Assembly: GCF_013364155.1 (NCBI RefSeq)
Contig: NZ_CP054916.1
Span: forward strand, 1,673,001-1,737,000
From: Streptomyces sp. NA02950
GTDB lineage: Bacteria > Actinomycetota > Actinomycetes > Streptomycetales > Streptomycetaceae
Direction of reading: 5' to 3'
Length of the DNA stretch: 64,000 nucleotides
The notes under the pieces were generated by a model, which saw only the letters and a program-made list of their open reading frames with translations, searched no databases and was not told the origin of the DNA. Below are positions 17,147 through 19,513 of this stretch, in pieces. Position numbers and translations under genes: made by a program. Each line of letters begins with the position of its first letter. Within the stretch, counting starts at the first letter, position 1.

Positions 17147-18094
17147 ATGGGACGACATGGGGGCAAGGCGGTGCGCCGCTGGGGAGCGGCGGTCATCGCG
17201 TCCACGGCGGCGCTGTCGGTCGCCGTACCGGCGGCCACCGCACAGGCCACCGCGCGCACGACCGCGGCCGGGCCGTCGGGGATCCAGGCCAAGAGCGCGT
17301 ATCTGCTCGACAGCGGCCCCAACAAGCAGTTGTGGGCCAAGGGCGCCGACACCAAGCGCCAGATGGCGAGCATCACCAAGATGATGACCGCCGTGGTGGT
17401 GCTGGACACCCGCGGGGTGAACCTCGACAAGAAGGTGACCGTCCGGCAGGCGTACCTGGACTACATCGAGCGCAGCGGCGGCAGCAAGGCCGATCTCCAG
17501 AAGGGCGACAAGCTGACGGTCCGACAGCTCCTCTACGGGATGCTGCTGCCGTCGGGGTGCGACGCGGCGATGGCGCTGGCCGACACCTTCGGCACCGGGA
17601 GCACCACCGCCAAGCGCACCGCGTCGTTCATCTCCACGATGAACAAGAAGGCCGACGCGCTGGGGATGTCCAGGACCCACTACGACTCCTTCGACGGGAT
17701 CTCGGACCACAACGCCAACTACACCACCGCCCGGGACCTGGCGAAGCTGGCGCGGCACGCGCTCGGCAACGCCACCTTCCGCACGGTGGTGAAGTCGACG
17801 GACACCGAGCAGAAGGCCCCGGCGGCCAACGGCCGGACCCGCACCTACTACTGGTCCAGCACCAACAAGCTGCTGGGCTCGTACAACGGCGCCATCGGCA
17901 TCAAGACCGGCACCGGCAGCGCGGCGGGCAAGTGCATCGTCTTCGCGGCGAAGCGGAACGGCCGCACGGTCGTCGGTGTGGTGCTGAACGACGCCAAGCG
18001 GTACCCGGACGCGAAGAAGATGCTCGACTGGGCGTACCACACGCGGACCCAGGTGACCTGGCGCAAGCTGCCCGCGGGCACACCGCAGGACTGA
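17147..18094 (+). CDS. D-alanyl-D-alanine carboxypeptidase (peptidase S11, PBP5-like)
   Basis: 315 residues. It trims the terminal D-Ala of peptidoglycan stem peptides outside the cell. A signal peptide occupies residues 1-32 (basic start, WGAAVIASTAALSVAVP, then TAQA). The catalytic motifs are SITK (Ser75-Lys78), SGC at 136-138 in place of the usual SGN, and KTG at 253-255 within GIKTGTGSAAGK. It lacks the PBP5 C-terminal beta domain and amphipathic anchor, so it may be released or held by the wall. GGAGGG precedes the ATG. Confidence 0.95.
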   Translation: MGRHGGKAVRRWGAAVIASTAALSVAVPAATAQATARTTAAGPSGIQAKSAYLLDSGPNKQLWAKGADTKRQMASITKMMTAVVVLDTRGVNLDKKVTVRQAYLDYIERSGGSKADLQKGDKLTVRQLLYGMLLPSGCDAAMALADTFGTGSTTAKRTASFISTMNKKADALGMSRTHYDSFDGISDHNANYTTARDLAKLARHALGNATFRTVVKSTDTEQKAPAANGRTRTYYWSSTNKLLGSYNGAIGIKTGTGSAAGKCIVFAAKRNGRTVVGVVLNDAKRYPDAKKMLDWAYHTRTQVTWRKLPAGTPQD

Positions 18095-18104
18095 CCGGTC
18101 CTGC

Positions 18105-18110
18105 TAGGAT
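18105..18110 (+). promoter_or_regulatory. -10 box of a leaderless leader-peptide transcript
   Basis: TAGGAT ends exactly 7 nt before the ATG of the 18-codon leader. This matches the actinomycete leaderless pattern and sets the likely transcription start at or next to 18118. Confidence 0.65.
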
Positions 18111-18117
18111 TCCCGCC

Positions 18118-18174
18118 ATGCAGCGTGCCGCGATCGCGATGACGACGACGCCGGAGAGTGTCCCGGCGCGCTGA
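18118..18174 (+). CDS. Threonine-codon leader peptide of the ThrRS gene
   Basis: Eighteen codons encode MQRAAIAMTTTPESVPAR, with three consecutive ACG (Thr) codons at 18142-18150. The message is probably leaderless. The open frame ends 17 nt before a terminator hairpin, and the next gene is a threonyl-tRNA synthetase. Ribosome stalling on the Thr codons when charged tRNA-Thr is scarce would be the regulatory event; the peptide itself is probably not functional. Confidence 0.75.
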   Translation: MQRAAIAMTTTPESVPAR

Positions 18175-18218
18175 TCGATGTCCTGATCCAAAGCCCCGGG
18201 GCGAGTGCCCCGGGGCTT
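18149..18218 (+). promoter_or_regulatory. Transcription attenuator of the ThrRS gene
   Basis: Two nested hairpins are visible. CGCCGG (18149-18154) pairs with CCGGCG (18163-18168) and starts inside the last Thr codon. The terminator AAGCCCCGGGGC (18191-18202) pairs perfectly over 12 bp with 18207-18218 around a GAGT loop. TCCCGG at 18161-18166 could alternatively pair with CCGGG in the terminator's left arm. A ribosome stalled on the ACG codons would mask the first hairpin and favour that antiterminator. No U-tract follows the terminator. Confidence 0.7.
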
Positions 18219-18259
18219 CGCGCTGTGGTCACTCGCCCGCTGTCCGCGAGGAGACCGCC

Positions 18260-19513
18260 ATGAACGACCACGGTGTGCACGACCACCGCAGACTCGGCCG
18301 TGAACTCGACCTGTTCGACACCGACCCGCTGATGGGCTCGGGGCTGCCGTACTGGCTGCCCGACGGCGCGGCGGTGCGGCACTCCCTGGAGGAGTACATC
18401 CGGGCCGTCGAGCGGCGGGCGGGCTACCGCCACGTGTACTCCCCGGTGCTCGGCAAACGGGAGCTGTACGAGATCTCGGGACATTGGGCGCACTACAGCG
18501 ACGACATGTACCCCCCGATGGACGTGGGCGGTGAACAGGTGGTCCTGCGTCCGAGCCTGTGTCCCCACCATGCGCTGATCTACCGCTCCCGCTCCCACAG
18601 CTATCGCGAACTCCCCCTGCGCATGGCCGAGTTGGGCGGTATGCACCGCGCCGAACTGTCCGGTGTCCTCGGCGAGCTGACCCGGGTCCGGGCCATTCAG
18701 CTCAATGACGCCCATGTCTTCTGCACCCTGGACCAGGCGGCCGGCGAGGCGCGGGCCGCGCTGGAACTGATCGGCGAGGCGTACGCGGCACTCGGCATCA
18801 CCCCGGCCCGCTACCGGCTCTCGCTCCCCGGCCCCGGTGGGAAGTACGTGGCCGCCCCGGAGATGTGGCGGCGCGCGACCGCGCTGCTGACCGAGGTCCT
18901 GGAGGACTGCGGTCTGCCGTACGAGGCGGCCGAGGGCGAGGCCGCGTTCTACGGGCCCAAGATCGATGTGCAGCTGGCCGACGGCGCCGGACGGGAGTTC
19001 ACCCTGTCCACCGTCCAGATCGACTTCCACCAGCCGGAGCGGTTCGATCTGCACTACATCGGGGCGGACGGGGCGAAGCACCGGCCGGTCATGGTCCACC
19101 GCAGCATCATCGGCAGTGTCGAACGCGCGGTGGCCCATCTCATCGAGACCTACGGCGGCGGGTTCCCCGCCTGGCTGGCCCCCACCCAGCTGGCGGTCCT
19201 CCCGGTGCACGGCGACCAGCTGCCGTACGCCGAAGAGGTCGCCCGGCGGTGCGCCGCCCTCGGACTGCGCGCCGAGGTGGCGGGGCCGGAACGCGGCAGC
19301 CTCGGCGCCCGGATCCGGGCCGCCCGGCTCGTCCCCTACCAGGCCGTCATCGGCGCCAAGGAAGCCGCCGACGCGCACATCAGCCTGCGTCTGCGGGACG
19401 GCCGCCGCCTCGACCCGCGCCCCGCCGATGAGGTCCTGGCCCGGATCGGCGCCCTCGTGAGCGCCCACGACCCGGCCTTGTGGGAGGACGGTGCCGCCGA
19501 TCAGCCGGGATAG
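18260..19513 (+). CDS. thrS: Short threonyl-tRNA synthetase lacking TGS and editing domains
   Basis: 417 residues, against roughly 640-660 for standard ThrRS. It starts directly at the class II catalytic core (LFDTDPLMGSGLPYWLPDG) and ends with the anticodon-binding domain (LAVLPVHGDQLPYAEEVARR). The zinc ligands align with E. coli ThrRS by motif and spacing: Cys101 (RPSLCPHH), His152 (LNDAHVFC) and His279 (VHRSIIGSVER). The N-terminal TGS and the Ser-editing domain are absent, so mischarged Ser-tRNA could not be corrected in cis. It is probably a regulated second ThrRS, expressed when Thr charging falls. GAGGAG precedes the ATG. Confidence 0.93.
   Translation: MNDHGVHDHRRLGRELDLFDTDPLMGSGLPYWLPDGAAVRHSLEEYIRAVERRAGYRHVYSPVLGKRELYEISGHWAHYSDDMYPPMDVGGEQVVLRPSLCPHHALIYRSRSHSYRELPLRMAELGGMHRAELSGVLGELTRVRAIQLNDAHVFCTLDQAAGEARAALELIGEAYAALGITPARYRLSLPGPGGKYVAAPEMWRRATALLTEVLEDCGLPYEAAEGEAAFYGPKIDVQLADGAGREFTLSTVQIDFHQPERFDLHYIGADGAKHRPVMVHRSIIGSVERAVAHLIETYGGGFPAWLAPTQLAVLPVHGDQLPYAEEVARRCAALGLRAEVAGPERGSLGARIRAARLVPYQAVIGAKEAADAHISLRLRDGRRLDPRPADEVLARIGALVSAHDPALWEDGAADQPG

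Follow-up and report, generated by a model that had tools for sequence, protein, structure and literature searches.

Attenuators in front of aminoacyl-tRNA synthetase genes have been described in Streptomyces for trpS and leuS (Seliverstov et al. 2005, PMC1262725; listed also in PMC8079986), and the passages of the former study that deal with threonine operons state that no conserved upstream RNA structure was observed there (PMC1262725). For threonine, the closest described system is thrL of S. lividans TK24 (MKRVRPFLETTPGFVPAR), which was reported in 2021 to precede the thrS gene SLIV_19410 (PMC8079986). According to its thrL section, the frame is leaderless as judged by the RNA-seq start and is accompanied by one hairpin and no uridine-rich sequence, and termination was 'not clear' (PMC8079986). 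This report, the sole paper on the element that we found in the open-licence literature searched, contradicts a preliminary description of the locus studied here, which had known of no described Thr-codon attenuator for a Streptomyces ThrRS. As far as the thrL section goes, the element is thus known in outline from S. lividans (PMC8079986).

Here we analysed a Thr-codon leader in Streptomyces sp. NA02950. The window, that is, the whole stretch of 64,000 nucleotides that was analysed, corresponds to positions 1,673,001-1,737,000 of the contig in a 9.77-Mb genome; positions below count from its first nucleotide. The following features are relevant to the analysis:

ends at 18094, + strand: upstream D-Ala-D-Ala carboxypeptidase gene, on the same strand as the leader
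18105-18110, + strand: -10 box TAGGAT, beginning 13 nt 5′ of the ATG at 18118
18118-18174, + strand: putative leader ORF MQRAAIAMTTTPESVPAR* of 18 codons (ATG 18118, TGA 18172-18174)
18142-18150, + strand: Thr run, sensor codons ACG ACG ACG (codons 9-11)
18149-18154 with 18163-18168, + strand: hairpin 1:2, 6 bp, starting inside the third ACG
18160-18166 with 18196-18202, + strand: possible antiterminator 2:3, by complementarity
18191-18202 with 18207-18218, + strand: terminator-like hairpin 3:4, perfect 12 bp, loop GAGT at 18203-18206
18199-18207 with 18230-18238, + strand: helix 3b:5, GGGCGAGTG with CACTCGCCC, which excludes the upper part of 3:4
18227-18230 with 18253-18256, + strand: helix 5:SD part a, GGTC with GACC, in the unconstrained minimum free energy (MFE) structure
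18232-18236 with 18246-18250, + strand: helix 5:SD part b, CTCGC with GCGAG, in the unconstrained MFE structure
18260-19513, + strand: short ThrRS (ThrRS2), 417 aa (ATG 18260, stop at 19513)

Because the -10 box lies 13 nt before the ATG, the 5′ end of the transcript is expected on or beside the start codon, which would make the RNA leaderless. A TAnnnT box stands in leaderless position at three short ORF starts in the window, and only the start of MQRAAIAMTTTPESVPAR has TTT. A simple scan called neither a promoter nor a terminator at the leader, and Rfam searched at the gathering score returned no family in the window, hence no T-box match. The pattern of leader plus first hairpin occurs once in the whole genome, and the leader architecture is well beyond chance. 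A pattern of promoter, ATG and Thr codons with the spacing of a shorter leader was rejected; it misfits the window spacing and had one unrelated match in the genome. The apparently leaderless 18-codon frame with three ACG codons, the small hairpin starting in the last of them and the threonyl-tRNA synthetase downstream, all claimed in the preliminary description, were recovered at the positions given above. Its 12-bp terminator hairpin is indeed a perfect 12-bp helix (18191-18218), but a U tract sought 3′ of 3:4 in the window was not present, so that 3:4 is a putative intrinsic terminator at most.

The protein encoded behind the leader scores 435 bits with the NCBIfam thrS model TIGR00418, which exceeds the cut-off. 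Pfam identified only the catalytic and anticodon-binding domains in ThrRS2, and found neither a TGS nor an N-terminal editing domain. A housekeeping ThrRS is also encoded in the genome and is 42% identical to ThrRS2 over the common part; the closest named relative among the best 80 of 275 ThrRS2 relatives comes from Streptomyces sp. NEAU-Y11 (L005, 89% identity). In a comparison with solved structures, ThrRS2 scored 376 bits with 1nyq, which we take to be the Staphylococcus aureus ThrRS, and 273 bits with 1evk and 1qf6, presumably both E. coli ThrRS; the higher score with the Staphylococcus chain may point to a horizontal origin. Obafluorin resistance arises elsewhere via a change of a ThrRS glycine (PMC11252418), and the FYGPK glycine of ThrRS2, which we equated by motif with the residue named in the resistance part of that work, is unaltered. 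We also considered that ThrRS2 might be a zinc-responsive paralogue, as thrS2 of Anabaena is described in the relevant part of PMC4787780.

We examined how far the leader is conserved. A contig scan confirmed 275 ThrRS2 relatives, of which the best 80 loci were kept, and a class sample of 296 genomes contained 46, NA02950 included, with a short ThrRS at E ≤ 1e-150. The window, these best 80 loci and 45 further class-sample loci made up a set of 126, with 120 distinct leaders and two locus pairs whose leaders are identical. The Thr-codon leader was kept in 122 of the 126 short-ThrRS loci, so the comparison of upstream regions for Thr codons and the hairpin, which the preliminary description had suggested as a check, did not refute its reading. 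In three of the misses (L046, L115, L125) the contig ends too near the gene; in the fourth (L060) the ORF is lost, and the hairpin and segment 5 are retained. Together with L175 (genome G335), L060 has a ThrRS2 gene with the 12-bp hairpin and a stretch resembling segment 5, no leader ORF and a differing upstream region.

The leader peptides of the relatives read M[KQ]R...TTTPxxVPAR and variants thereof. Among 79 leaders (78 of the best 80 loci plus the window), the Thr run comprises three codons in 78 and two in one, and ACG-ACG-ACG is used in 74 of the 78 three-Thr leaders. Five genes of the window contain 66 ACC, 24 ACG, 4 ACA and 2 ACT codons; the near-constant use of ACG as sensor codon, despite ACC being commoner, may mark the isoacceptor that is emptied first. 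In 78 of the 79 leaders, a TAnnnT box begins 12-13 nt 5′ of the start codon that was chosen, a count that is partly circular because starts were picked with a preference for such a box. In three leaders (L045, L112, L119), minor differences in length put the part beyond TTT into another frame and alter the peptide end (e.g. MQRAQMTTTPEVSRRAD); the RNA CCCGGCGCGCTGA is retained in all three, and TTT is in frame with the start. From this pattern, the ORF seems to be constrained at the RNA level in its terminal part and at the codon level in its Thr run. With respect to genomic context, the leader moves together with the ThrRS2 gene and not with its neighbours: in flanks of up to 2.5 kb per side, a relative of the carboxypeptidase encoded upstream was found at 1 of 80 loci, as was one of the gene downstream, and the largest neighbour family spans at most 10 of 81 loci. 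Second copies of the leader precede another ThrRS2 start (L171, genome G462) and a broken ThrRS2 remnant (L172, G316), which suggests gain and loss of the module.

The specificity of the association was assessed by applying one filter, a promoter-linked Thr-run ORF and a perfect GC-rich hairpin of at least 9 bp, to both kinds of thrS. Of the 126 ThrRS2 loci, 121 passed for the ORF, 113 for the hairpin and 110 for both; of 40 upstream stretches of about 400 nt from housekeeping thrS genes, hand-picked among 287 genomes with a match, none passed for either. Three of these (L191, L208, L216) contain a short ORF with clustered Thr codons and no -10 box. Housekeeping thrS was thus rejected as a carrier of the leader, the copy of NA02950 itself having none by eye and genus g102 (see below) being the exception. 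A covariance model, R1, built from the 120 leaders and run on the 296 genomes of the class sample, returned 44 matches above 60 bits, of which 43 lie beside a short ThrRS by coordinates and one (G234) lies at a contig end. Such a match stands beside the gene in 43 of the 46 short-ThrRS genomes; the remaining three are G196, with 38.8 bits, and the contig-end cases G292 and G152. Another 32 class-sample matches fell below 60 bits, and the four inspected were a true ThrRS2 leader (G196), the leader of a full-length ThrRS (G241), another leader (G232) and an unrelated hairpin, which was discarded (G219). In a genus sample, 111 of 199 genomes had a match to R1 at E ≤ 1e-3, counting the model match alone, and 100 genomes (101 places) exceeded 60 bits. 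Weak genus-sample matches were inspected in G316, G463, G335 and G341, the last of which was rejected as a tRNA-associated hairpin.

We then turned to the base pairs. Alignment A1 contains 120 sequences and A2 112 of them; the alignment is not structural. Hairpin 1:2 is paired in 99.9% of the cells of A1 and is nearly invariant, and 2:3 is paired in 96.2% with no double change; both lack covariation because they hardly vary. The 3:4 hairpin is paired in 95.7% of cells and has 22 double-change cells, a number reached by none of 500 shuffles; slid by +1 register, it has 21 double-change cells and only 66.8% pairing. The helix 3b:5 joins the terminator loop and its flank to a segment that starts 9 nt 3′ of the hairpin (18227-18238). 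On A1 it is paired in 95.1% of cells with 24 double-change cells, compared to 7.5 in shuffles (0/500 reach the native value) and 3 to 10 in slid registers. Of the 500 shuffles, 24 reached the native count of 3b:5 pairs with a double change (4), and 42 the native count of pair types. The 24 double-change cells are confined to the four positions of the loop; in the flanking pairs, only one partner changes (G-C to G-U, C-G to U-G).

A further helix, 5:SD, covers the Shine-Dalgarno sequence GAGGAG of ThrRS2 (18248-18253). It appears in the unconstrained MFE structure of 18118-18275 (-77.8 kcal/mol), which contains 1:2, 3:4 and GGUC.CUCGC/GCGAG..GACC. Matched changes of its two sides occur in a Kitasatospora-like group (TCCACTC with GAGTGGA; L040, L053, L058), in L061, L062 and L074 (GGTG with CACC), in L099 and L106 (GGGC with GCCC) and in L110 (GTGCGTC with GACGCAT). 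In a fixed register on A2, 85.5% of cells are paired and 11 show a double change compared to 5.0 after shuffling (0/500 reach 11); three of six slid registers exceed this number (21, 16 and 12), and the register of the helix varies. Pairing between the SD core and segment 5 has a modestly raised probability, 0.58 versus 0.45 with shuffled heads, and exceeds that of its own shuffles in 94 of 120 leaders.

In addition, we used an alignment-free test in which partner segments were swapped among the 120 loci in 300 permutations and pairing energies were compared. The native energy was better than all 300 permutations for 3:4 (z -9.0), 3b:5 (z -7.9) and 5:SD (z -10.1); 1:2 (z -1.8, 4/300 reaching it) and 2:3 (z -0.8) did not exceed all permutations. 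The controls gave z values of -0.9 for segment 2 with 5, -1.6 for the leader with SD (20/300), 0.6 for 3b with SD, 0.3 for a decoy with SD and 2.8 for a decoy with 5, and reversed pairs were reached by 47 and 238 of 300. Kinship among loci can inflate such tests; that the controls, which use these same loci, stay largely flat speaks against it. A pairing between the leader start and the stop region was discarded; the two are strongly complementary, but the native energy (-17.56) equals the permuted one (-17.54) closely enough to leave no covariation.

A similar arrangement was found in genus g102 (family f17), where four of five genomes have a short ORF with TTTP or TTTTP, preceded by a TAnnnT box, ahead of the full-length ThrRS (L174 / L219, L222, L223 and L224; peptides MARVFWSTTTPGISRRLSLAR, MARMHRPTTTPGTSRRHPRMR, MARAFEATTTPGTSRRHPLTR and MAGAFESMTETTTTPGVSRRCSLTR); the filter found no leader ORF in the fifth. 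The Thr codons differ synonymously in two of these leaders. A hairpin CCCCGGGAGCGATCCCGGGG follows, with GGTC replacing GATC in one case, and then CGCTCCC. Since CGCTCCC is complementary to GGGAGCG of the hairpin, g102 also has 3b:5, written in different letters. In these four genomes, the full-length ThrRS is preceded by a diverged version of the architecture in which the order of the hairpins is unchanged. A leader of another kind was seen at L177 (G232:C1:2563250-2565200), where the ORF MQRKFWRFYGYRPSGRTVALLALR stands behind a TAnnnT box and, with a strong T-tailed hairpin, precedes a gene that by eye resembles a DAHP synthase; it is possibly an aromatic amino-acid attenuator.

Folding of the nascent leader was examined in snapshots. 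With segment 1 masked by a stalled ribosome and the RNA ending before segment 4, 2:3 formed with a mean probability of 0.92 (above 0.5 in 111 of 120 leaders), and with no ribosome at all with 0.62 (86 of 120). Because 2:3 forms in the ribosome-free RNA, 1:2 alone cannot block it, and a ribosome at the stop codon would have to do so. When 2:3 was held and the RNA was cut off behind segment 5, the probability that this segment paired with the 3b/4 side was 0.64 (above 0.5 in 102 of 120), compared to 0.03 on the terminator path. Equilibrium folding of the complete leader gave a Shine-Dalgarno accessibility of 0.32 versus 0.33 whether or not 2:3 was held, with 5:3b at 0.11, and does not support a thermodynamic switch of the Shine-Dalgarno site. 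Since the effect vanishes at equilibrium, a translational layer can only be kinetic; antitermination must likewise be kinetic because 2:3 falls far short of 3:4 in stability (-63.5 versus -77.8 kcal/mol). The snapshot folding of modelled nascent RNA fits a kinetic switch.

Our evidence comes from sequence and folding; the ORF, its codons, the spacing, the conservation and the compensatory changes in 3:4, 3b:5 and 5:SD are observed, and from them we infer leader translation, stalling, termination at 3:4, the 2:3 step and the order of events in the translational layer. The size of the ribosome footprint allows a stalled ribosome to be placed on the leader. With any of the Thr codons in its A site, a ribosome of this footprint would cover 18149-18154 and free 18162 onward; at the stop codon it would cover segment 2 and leave 3:4 free. 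In our working model, a ribosome would begin translating the leaderless RNA at its 5′ AUG. Given ample charged tRNA-Thr, it would reach the stop codon at 18172 and cover segment 2, so that 3:4 would form and halt RNA polymerase; in any read-through RNA, the Shine-Dalgarno sequence would be kept within 5:SD. When charged tRNA-Thr is scarce, the ribosome would stall on the ACG codons and cover segment 1 (18149-18154), segment 2 would capture segment 3, and 3:4 would come too late. The leftover part of segment 3 (3b) would then capture segment 5 before the Shine-Dalgarno sequence is transcribed, and the site would be open.

Ribosome-mediated control of this spare, editing-domain-less ThrRS by the supply of Thr-tRNA, whichever the output layer, is in our view probable on the sequence evidence. 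The ribosome-mediated Thr attenuation put forward in the preliminary description fits that evidence; the pairings 3b:5 and 5:SD had been overlooked. Their covariation suggests control of translation as well, and ThrRS2 may thus have a second, translational layer. We tentatively propose, as a possibility to which we assign less than even chances, that one stall is read twice through the split segment 3, controlling transcription and translation, and that the same design precedes the full-length ThrRS of another genus. Granted the core, attenuation of transcription alone would be rather unlikely: here 3:4 would be a tail-less terminator, and 3b:5 and 5:SD would be side effects or serve RNA stability. 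The classical order of 1:2, 2:3 and 3:4 with ribosome-sized spacing, the closed Shine-Dalgarno site in equilibrium folding and the mixed fixed-register support for 5:SD are consistent with it, but the permutations link segment 5 to two partners, the terminator loop and the Shine-Dalgarno region, and 3b:5 has its 24 double-change cells. Less likely again, on the same premise, is a mainly translational attenuation, for which ermC is the model and in which 3:4 would not terminate and the leader ribosome would set whether segment 5 covers the Shine-Dalgarno sequence. The GC-rich 3:4 itself covaries and is paired in 95.7% of its cells across 120 leaders, and tail-less hairpins can act as terminators in actinomycetes, both of which speak against it; the U tract is absent after 3:4, 5:SD covaries, and termination was called unclear in the S. 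lividans thrL account (PMC8079986), as this reading would have it.

Two further explanations were weighed. We give hardly any credence to the idea that the D-Ala-D-Ala carboxypeptidase gene upstream uses the 12-bp hairpin as its terminator and that the ORF is there by chance; that gene does end at 18094 on the same strand, but its relative flanks 1 of 80 loci, no neighbour family occurs in more than 10 of 81, and leader and hairpin stay with ThrRS2. Binding of ThrRS to its own leader, with incidental Thr codons, has a precedent in the E. coli enzyme acting on thrS, a case mentioned in PMC2965389, and is nevertheless very improbable here, given that the Thr triplets are in frame with a start codon at a promoter-like box and that the domain search of ThrRS2 revealed no N-terminal domains.

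Returning to ribosome-mediated control by Thr-tRNA supply, we suggest that the second ThrRS might serve as an emergency enzyme when charging of tRNA-Thr fails, be it through starvation or a ThrRS-inhibiting antibiotic of a neighbour. Its nearest functional parallel is the second TrpRS of S. coelicolor, which is inducible and indolmycin-resistant. Polycysteine leaderless ORFs of mycobacteria were reportedly described by Canestrari in 2020. As summarized in the corresponding part of a review (PMC9031893), these likewise use contiguous cognate codons as an attenuator, for cysteine instead of threonine. The Streptomyces trpS and leuS attenuators, as presented in the sections on these genes, share with the window a cognate-codon leader and an antiterminator/terminator before a synthetase gene, but use Trp or Leu codons instead of Thr (PMC1262725). 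The vmlR leader of Bacillus subtilis resembles the one proposed for ThrRS2 in that a single ORF serves attenuation of transcription and of translation; according to the passages describing it, it senses antibiotics and not an amino acid (PMC9226507). Breadth of conservation, 3b:5, 5:SD and the second genus were not found described in the open-licence literature searched. Closest is thrL-thrS of S. lividans, likened here by its printed peptide form: it too has a leaderless 18-codon TTP..VPAR leader, with two Thr codons versus three in the window, and its thrL section covers one strain and contains no structure or comparison (PMC8079986). Our comparison turns this one-strain annotation into a defined element that occurs in several families of actinobacteria and whose base pairs can be tested, and the unclear termination in S. 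lividans may be explained if part of the control is translational.
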